Positions 1 to 63,033 of a stretch of 63,033 nt of DNA are shown here, piece after piece. This stretch comes from Atopobium sp. oral taxon 810 str. F0209 (lineage in GTDB: Bacteria > Actinomycetota > Coriobacteriia > Coriobacteriales > Atopobiaceae), in NCBI RefSeq assembly GCF_000466405.1, contig NZ_KE952949.1, positions 14,455 to 77,487 of the forward strand. The letters are read 5' to 3'. Below the pieces are notes generated by a model. The model was not told the origin of the DNA and made no database searches. It saw only the letters and a program-made list of their open reading frames with translations. Within the stretch, counting starts at the first letter, position 1; every line of letters starts with the position of its first letter. Both the position numbers and the translations under genes were made by a program.

Positions 1-120
1 TGAAACGATGTGTGGCGTTTGGCAAGCAGGGCCGTGCTGCCTGAAAGAATGTGTGGCGTTTGGCAAGCAGGGCTGAGCCATTTGAAATGATATGTGGCGT
101 TTGGTGTTGATCTGTGAGTA
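1..120. repeat. Repeat cluster 1: phased GTGGC units, 41-bp spacing
   Basis: Three copies of the unit core GTGGCGTTTGG occur with GTGGC starting at 12, 53 and 94, so the spacing is exactly 41 bp twice. Each core is preceded by a TGAAA-type box (TGAAAC at 1, TGAAA at 42, TGAAA at 83), and the first two are followed by CAAGCAGGGC. The same unit forms the clusters at 27371-27812 and 62716-63033. The cluster probably continues to the left of the window. No long open frame with a ribosome binding site is present, so it reads as non-coding repeat DNA. Confidence 0.85.
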
Positions 121-27193: not shown

Positions 27194-27370
27194 GTGTGGG
27201 GTTTTGTGATAGTTTTTCTTTTAGCTCCGTTGTTATTTAGATTTGGGCGCCTCCTCGTCCTTACGGGCGATATGCACCATTACTCGATTTTCTATGCCGA
27301 ATGCGTACCGATGTGACTTCAAAGTGCGATCAATGTGGTGGTATGTAGCTCTGCTTGCTTACGCTGCTTG

Positions 27371-27812
27371 CCAAACGCCACATACTCTTTCAATCAACAC
27401 AGCTTTGCCTGTCAAAGCCACAGATTCTTTCAAGCAGAGTAGTTCTGCTTGCCAAAAGCCACAGATTCTTTCAGAAAAAATGTCAAAAGCCACAGATCTC
27501 TTCAATGGCCTTCACGTTTTCGCAGGTAGATTTTTTGGGCGTGAAGAGATGTGTGGCTTTTGGCTAAAAAAGTGAAGTAGAACGTGGCGTTTGACATCTG
27601 GCATGAAACAGAGTGTGGCGTTTGGCACTTGATATGAAAGAGAGCGTGGCTTTTGACATTCGGTATGAAACAGGATGTGGCTTTTGTTGCCTGGCATGAA
27701 GTAGAACGTGGCTTTTGGCATCTGGTGTGAAATGGAATGTGGCTTTTGCCGCCTGATGCGAAACGAAGTGTGGCGTTTGACAACCGATGTGAAACAAAAC
27801 GTGGCGGCTGAT
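27371..27812. repeat. Repeat cluster 2: outward-facing phased units around a conserved junction
   Basis: Right arm: nine GTGGC cores start at 27553, 27584, 27615, 27646, 27677, 27708, 27739, 27770 and 27801, every step exactly 31 bp. The repeat consensus is GTGGCKTTTGRCA, about five bases, then ATGAAACAGA-like sequence. Left arm: four reversed cores (GCCAC starting 27377, 27417, 27458, 27489) with steps 40, 41 and 31. The arms flank the 95-bp junction at 27472-27566. Unit sequence is degenerate while spacing is kept, so spacing seems to be what is selected. The cluster fills the gap between alcohol dehydrogenase and tRNA-Leu. Open frames through it lack start sites. Confidence 0.9.
27472..27566. 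repeat. 95-bp conserved junction of repeat cluster 2
   Basis: This central segment matches 62826-62920 at the same length, with about 13 differences. A 30-bp stretch (27521-27550, beginning CGCAGGTAGATTTTTT and ending GAAGAGAT) is identical in both. The facing inner units can form a long imperfect hairpin: a roughly 30-base arm on the left with AAAAGCCACA and TCTCTTCA pairs with the TGAAGAGA to TGGCTTTT side on the right. Confidence 0.85.
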
Positions 27813-27836
27813 TCGAATAAAGAGGAGCTCTGAAAG

Positions 27837-62715: not shown

Positions 62716-63033
62716 GTGCCGTGCCAAACGCCACATATCGTTTCAATCGGCCCGGCTCTGCTTGTCAAACGTCACGTTCTGTTTCAGTCGGAGCAGCCCT
62801 GCTTGCCAAAAGCCACGTTCTGTTTCAGAAAAAATGTCAAAAGCCACACTCTGTTTCAAAGGACCTGACGTTTGCGCAGGTAGATTTTTTGGGCGTGAAG
62901 AGATACGTGGCTTTTGGCTAACAGAACGTGGCTTTTGGCACCTGGCATGAAACGGAGTGTGGCGTTTGGCACTTGGCATGAAACGGAACGTGGCTTTTGA
63001 CAGGTAGGACTGCGACAGTTGAAACGATATGTG
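62716..63033. repeat. Repeat cluster 3: outward-facing phased units around a conserved junction
   Basis: Left arm: reversed cores GCCAC (one GTCAC) start at 62730, 62771, 62812 and 62843, steps 41, 41 and 31. Right arm: GTGGC cores start at 62907, 62928, 62959 and 62990, with GTG at 63031, steps 21, 31, 31 and 41. Spacer length thus changes in steps of ten. The arms flank the junction 62826-62920. The inner cores are 60 bp apart, as in cluster 2. The array runs past the end of the window. Confidence 0.9.
62826..62920. repeat. 95-bp conserved junction of repeat cluster 3
   Basis: It is the counterpart of 27472-27566, equal in length, with the 30-bp invariant stretch at 62875-62904 and AAAAAATGTCAAAAGCCACA also shared. 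It separates the left-facing and right-facing unit arrays. Confidence 0.85.

Follow-up and report, generated by a model that had tools for sequence, protein, structure and literature searches.

We interpret, with moderate confidence, a two-armed repeat in the genome of the human-associated bacterium Atopobium sp. oral taxon 810 str. F0209 as a lineage-restricted, non-autonomous mobile element of intergenic DNA, the arms of which would be helically phased sites for a putative trans-acting protein. Copies lie in the 63,033-nucleotide stretch of DNA analysed here (the window). Small intergenic repeats are common in bacteria and are mostly palindromes, simple arrays or end-defined miniature transposons; the Olegusella element is unusual in its exact helical spacing, its fixed centre, its unequal arms and its lack of ends. 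Its natural variation separates constrained from free positions, so that both the binding protein and the mode of movement are directly testable in a culturable species.

Architecture of the element

The repeat unit, described by a weight matrix, is 24 bp long and reads TGAA-N7-GTGGCkTTTGrCA (k = G or T; r = A or G). The matrix found 256 units in stretches around copies in the F0209 genome and 53 in Olegusella massiliensis; the rest of the window is almost free of units. Recurrence far exceeds chance, as a 21-bp pattern of the unit matched the F0209 genome 204 times, against one match for the reversed-pattern control. Spacing is exact: neighbours on the same strand start 31 bp (n = 111) or 41 bp (n = 85) apart, giving 196 intervals, and any other value occurred at most twice. 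The inner cores had been noted to lie exactly 60 bp apart in two clusters of the window, and in stretches of the two genomes 25 of the 30 opposed pairs scored have precisely this start distance. The resulting core plan, < 31 < 60 > 31 >, is near-universal beside the centre and is kept in F0209 and O. massiliensis. Beyond the first 31-bp step the arms are unequal: steps of 41 bp are usual in the 5' arm, whereas 31 bp prevails in the 3' arm, with 41 bp at times. An A6/T6 tract forms the spacer between the first and second units of both arms, and the 37-bp centre contains GACGTTTGCGCAGGTAGATTTTTT-NN-GCGTGAA, which is found in two species and one other genus.

Element length is 147-502 bp in 31 of 32 oriented copies, the other being a 113-bp fragment; the flanks of these 32 copies hold no common end sequence, and the copies stop after different units. 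In the inner part of the arms the variable heptamer tends to be characteristic of a unit's position, while outer right-arm units have no such positional identity. The inner block is thus inherited or copied whole, and the arms gain or lose units.

Copies in the window

The copy at the end of the window has a left (5') arm on the minus strand at 62722-62827, in which the unit scan places reversed units L4 (62722-62745), L3 (62763-62786) and L2 (62804-62827) in steps of 41 and 41 bp; TRF reports a period of 41 at 62722-62828. The innermost left unit, L1, also reversed (62835-62858, minus strand), lies 31 bp from L2 across the conserved A6/T6 spacer. The 37-bp centre with its conserved core follows on the plus strand at 62859-62895, then the innermost right unit R1 (TGAAGAGATACGTGGCTTTTGGCT; 62896-62919, plus strand) and the right (3') arm (62917-63002, plus strand; TRF period 31), with units R2 (62917-62940), R3 (62948-62971) and R4 (62979-63002). 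R2 is truncated and displaced by 10 bp (offset 49, not 59). The start of the next right unit, TGAAACGATATGTG (63020-63033, plus strand), is broken off by a 10-N assembly gap at which the window stops, and the right array runs beyond 63033.

A second element has three reversed units in its left arm (27369-27473, minus strand; TRF and unit scan), a core at 27481-27565 (plus strand) made up of L1 (27481-27504), centre (27505-27541) and R1 (27542-27565), and a right arm of units R2-R9 in 31-bp steps (27573-27813, plus strand). A third is represented by right-arm units in 41-bp steps at 1-104 (plus strand; TRF and unit scan), this first cluster of repeats being the right end of an element whose left part precedes the window and which starts upstream at G000:C17:14241 (locus L043).

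The original prediction, which compared the two more complete clusters, proved accurate on several counts: the junctions at 27472-27566 and 62826-62920 are both 95 bp long and about 86% identical (82/95), their maximal exact match is the 30-bp stretch 27521-27550/62875-62904, and both clusters have a left array of reversed units and a right array of forward units. The two-armed layout it proposed thus stands, but the element does not end at 63033 and the arms, with their 41 against 31 bp steps, are not equivalent.

Distribution among genomes

Dispersal of a defined element, with extendable arms around a fixed centre, was part of the same prediction and is borne out across the F0209 genome and its relatives. 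In the F0209 genome (G000, a 1.95-Mb draft in 38 contigs) the 95-bp junction is matched 32 times, in part or in full, and we count about 38 element loci with unrelated flanks, eight of the junctions being 96-100% identical. The junction occurs 8-9 times in the congener O. massiliensis KHD7 (G004; contig NZ_FLLS01000002.1, 1,755,906 bp) and is absent from the other 58 relatives first searched, three congeners among them. Across 397 Coriobacteriales genomes, a two-unit pattern was found at 102 sites in F0209, at 17 in O. massiliensis and at a single site in a genome from a different genus of the family, with zero in the remaining 394. Phage and plasmid collections held no similar sequence and viral contigs no match to the double unit or the centre; to judge by title and abstract, none of the papers listed for Olegusella or for repeats of Atopobiaceae and Coriobacteria seems to describe such repeats.

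The single copy in the other genus (L242) has the full plan, < 41 < 31 < 61 > 31 >, with 61 bp across the same centre, and its flanks are each similar to those of a different O. massiliensis copy, suggestive of horizontal transfer from an Olegusella-like donor. Separately, a surface-protein gene region is 94% identical between that genome (L242 6991-8001) and O. massiliensis near 582 kb (L117 5491-6501), a few kb from an element in both, and was probably transferred horizontally.

Sequence constraint

We made a gapless alignment of 21 copies from three genomes (13, 7 and 1). Identity is 97% in the motif columns and 96-98% in the A/T spacers, whereas in the variable columns of the same units it is 61-70% across genomes (81% within O. 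massiliensis); the centre is 79-89% identical, the 17-bp spacers 59% and the distal 7-bp spacers 55%. Differences in the heptamer are transitions in 59-81% of cases, against about half in the spacers. At four sites common to F0209 and O. massiliensis, the element and adjacent DNA are 67-75% identical, with the motif blocks kept. Since motif columns so far exceed both the variable columns and the spacers, the motif itself is constrained, a pattern characteristic of sequence-specific recognition rather than neutral decay.

Gain, loss and homogenisation between species

Counterparts in O. massiliensis were located for most F0209 copies with one concatenated query. At least five element sites are common to the two, including that of the second element in the window. 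The window-end copy is missing in O. massiliensis, where 14 bp lie between the conserved flanks, against about 557 bp in F0209, and about 20 other F0209 copies are likewise missing from the matching sites. The clearest case is the pair of contig ends C13/C31 (L042/L056) compared with L098: in O. massiliensis the two flanks meet exactly, and the insert is edged on both sides by a short TTTTGGCA/GTTTGACA repeat, which is itself the end of a unit. The site of the window-end copy has no target-site duplication, and no consistent duplications were found among the copies compared. One outer unit is left at three O. massiliensis sites without an element (L065, L066 and L104), and a degenerate one at L108, so that part of the presence and absence reflects loss and not insertion.

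At common sites, the junction is 55-81% identical to its counterpart and closer to paralogues in its own genome, which indicates that copies turn over or are homogenised within each species; some of the spread may be due to gene conversion. No copy was found to be autonomous. The only gene found between two copies encodes a 338-aa protein; it lies between elements 1.5 kb apart (L040 2946-3962; G000:C11:29945-30958), in a stretch that, elements and gene together, is wholly absent from O. massiliensis. Homologues of the protein lie on contig C17 (two, at 161 kb and 180 kb) and in genome G001 (two more). We rejected it as a mobiliser: Pfam gave no match, O. massiliensis lacks the protein, and its F0209 homologues are tens of kb from any element found.

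Proposed mode of action

As a mobile element, this roughly 150-500 bp of non-coding DNA would act as an ordered platform of putative protein-binding sites, one to each 24-bp unit, with TGAA and GTGGCkTTTGrCA as the conserved blocks of the site. Steps of 31 or 41 bp correspond to three or four turns of the helix and would set the bound proteins on one face of the DNA. The two opposed inner units, 60 bp apart and flanked by the A6/T6 tracts, frame the conserved 37-bp centre, which with its A/T tracts would be the site of action. A trans-acting protein, most likely a recombinase or transposase-like factor, would assemble on the arms and act at or through the centre, its action driving copying to new intergenic sites and keeping the motif intact. 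Dispersal, restriction to a lineage and instability of position make mobilising the element the most likely role of such a protein. Against this interpretation, the analysis yielded no candidate for the protein, no autonomous copy and no fixed ends, terminal inverted repeats or consistent target duplications.

Genes, replication and a possible chromosomal function

The main rival to a mobilising protein, which we consider somewhat unlikely, is that the element serves the chromosome of its host, its arrays being sites for a nucleoid, insulator or regulatory protein that are kept between genes, often convergent ones. Placement agrees with it: to the earlier question of whether copies sit only between genes, the answer is that none overlaps a called gene, and all copies classified (34 loci, crude gene calls) are intergenic, the flanking gene pairs being convergent at 12, tandem at 17 and divergent at 5. 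The helical phasing of the units and the constraint on the motif at sites common to both species speak for it as well, yet most sites are not common to these two close species, the element is absent in other members of the GTDB genus, and copies have no consistent relation to gene orientation.

In O. massiliensis, where GC skew places a strand switch near 835 kb, all eight centres (at 144, 582, 697, 729, 1069, 1257, 1282 and 1505 kb) are co-oriented with the leading strand, as a chromosomal function might have it, but in F0209 the bias is weak (about 16/24, p 0.15; combined p 0.007 with O. massiliensis). The suggested relation to origin or terminus is a possible one, and we regard the replication polarity of the centre as a lead. 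A bolder reading, and an unlikely one, would make this a bipolar, helically phased nucleoprotein element of a new class, in which a dedicated protein polymerises outward along both arms from the central site and acts there with a direction imposed by replication or by the protein's own polarity, so as to move the element or organise the chromosome.

Folding, slippage and insertion sequences

We think it quite improbable that the element works as RNA or as a folded single strand, transcribed copies forming a long hairpin with a role in transcription termination or message stability such as BOX or SPRITE repeats may have. The opposed arms are predicted to fold into a strong hairpin, at -65.7 kcal/mol on one strand (z -6.8) and -58.1 kcal/mol on the other (z -6.9); in 89.7% of cells the named structure keeps its pairs, and the covariation score exceeds all but 7 of 500 shuffles. 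Such strength is, however, expected from inverted units alone. About a third of cells leave the variable heptamers of L1 and R1 unpaired, pairing at the K position of L2/R2 fails in 12 of 21, the heptamers of L2 and R2 agree no better than after shuffling of partners, and 41 against 31 bp steps put the arms out of register. Nor is there a terminator-like site in the window-end copy, and the second element is already flanked by two ordinary terminators. Rfam gave no match at the element in the window or in L045, L111 and L242 up to E = 1, returning tRNAs only.

Equally improbable is a passive minisatellite, in which slippage and unequal recombination would multiply the units and gene conversion homogenise the centres with no protein involved. 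Arm length does vary: super-periods of 62 and 124 bp mark the right arm of the second element, which has expanded to nine units in F0209 against two at the same O. massiliensis site; the outer right-arm units, lacking positional identity, also fit. This mechanism nevertheless leaves the gap between motif and variable columns unexplained, together with the exact 31, 41 and 60 bp spacing and the copies at unrelated sites.

That a resident insertion sequence moves a miniature element is very improbable: an IS256-type IS adjoins several copies, and an IS-like end (GTTACGTCCATAAAATGG...) abuts the right arm at 1505 kb and 582 kb in O. massiliensis and in the other-genus copy, but the junctions of arm and IS end differ between copies, most copies are without an IS end, element and IS have no terminal repeat in common, and where contigs C6 (end, L035) and C7 (start, L036) meet the element insertion of an IS256-like IS (end ...GTCACGTCCGTAAAATGG...) has apparently interrupted a unit, where 8 bp (CACTCTGT) are duplicated.

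Comparison with known repeats

As tested, the defining features of REP/BIME, BOX and classical MITEs are absent from the element, which works like the composite intergenic repeats (BOX, BrickBuilt, NIME) and has an unusual architecture among small non-autonomous intergenic elements. REP/BIME sequences and REPINs with their RAYT transposases (PMC2817692, PMC3116915) are alike in having dispersed intergenic units at regular spacing and in opposite orientations. Their units are palindromic; those of Olegusella, by the weight matrix, are not inverted repeats, and the Y1 transposase family PF01797 has no match, RAYT included, in the three genomes G000, G004 and G075, with 5 of 14 control genomes positive, in agreement with the prediction that the element is unlike REP/BIME. 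It was also rightly set apart from CRISPR, in which identical repeats in a single orientation alternate with unrelated spacers; here the arms are opposed, the units vary, and the spacers are conserved A/T tracts (A6/T6) or related to one another instead of unique. Nor did we find evidence that the centre derives from a conserved gene or an insertion sequence.

MITE-like features are present, the element being short, non-coding, multi-copy and intergenic (about 38 loci), yet the 32 oriented copies have neither fixed ends nor terminal inverted repeats. BOX of Streptococcus pneumoniae has boxA and boxC ends with boxB between them and IS-like terminal inverted repeats (PMC3049150). It too is a composite, non-coding intergenic repeat of many copies that joins fixed modules to an internal module of variable number, and is over-represented between convergent genes (PMC3049150). 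By its described architecture it differs: in Olegusella the fixed module is central, the variable arrays lie outside it and face outward, and terminal inverted repeats were not found. In the BrickBuilt MITE of Porphyromonas gingivalis, a leader and a tail with short inverted-repeat ends enclose a single direct array that has no spacers (PMC4596501); this MITE is likewise lineage-restricted and intergenic and contains a minisatellite of 23-nt units in variable number (PMC4596501), whereas the Olegusella element is two opposed, spaced arrays around a centre. In Neisseria, dRS3 has inverted ends, ATTCCC-N8-GGGAAT, and occurs with RS units of 30-160 bp (PMC3898611). These NIME dRS3/RS arrays resemble ours as recombination-prone arrays of repeats of about 20 bp in intergenic DNA, but no fixed centre and no 31/41-bp phasing are described there (PMC3898611).

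Assembly breaks and double-centre copies

At least 15 contig ends of F0209 lie within arrays (C5, C6, C7, C11, C13, C19, C23, C24, C26, C28, C30, C31, C34, C35 and C37), as do most 10-N gaps in the stretches examined, so the unit numbers given here are minimum estimates, and the arrays are a main cause of breakage in the draft assembly. In each of two copies, L039 (6105-6187) and L055 (2385-2469), a pair of centres that differ in subtype lie about 41 bp from each other, which suggests nested insertion or recombination between subtypes.
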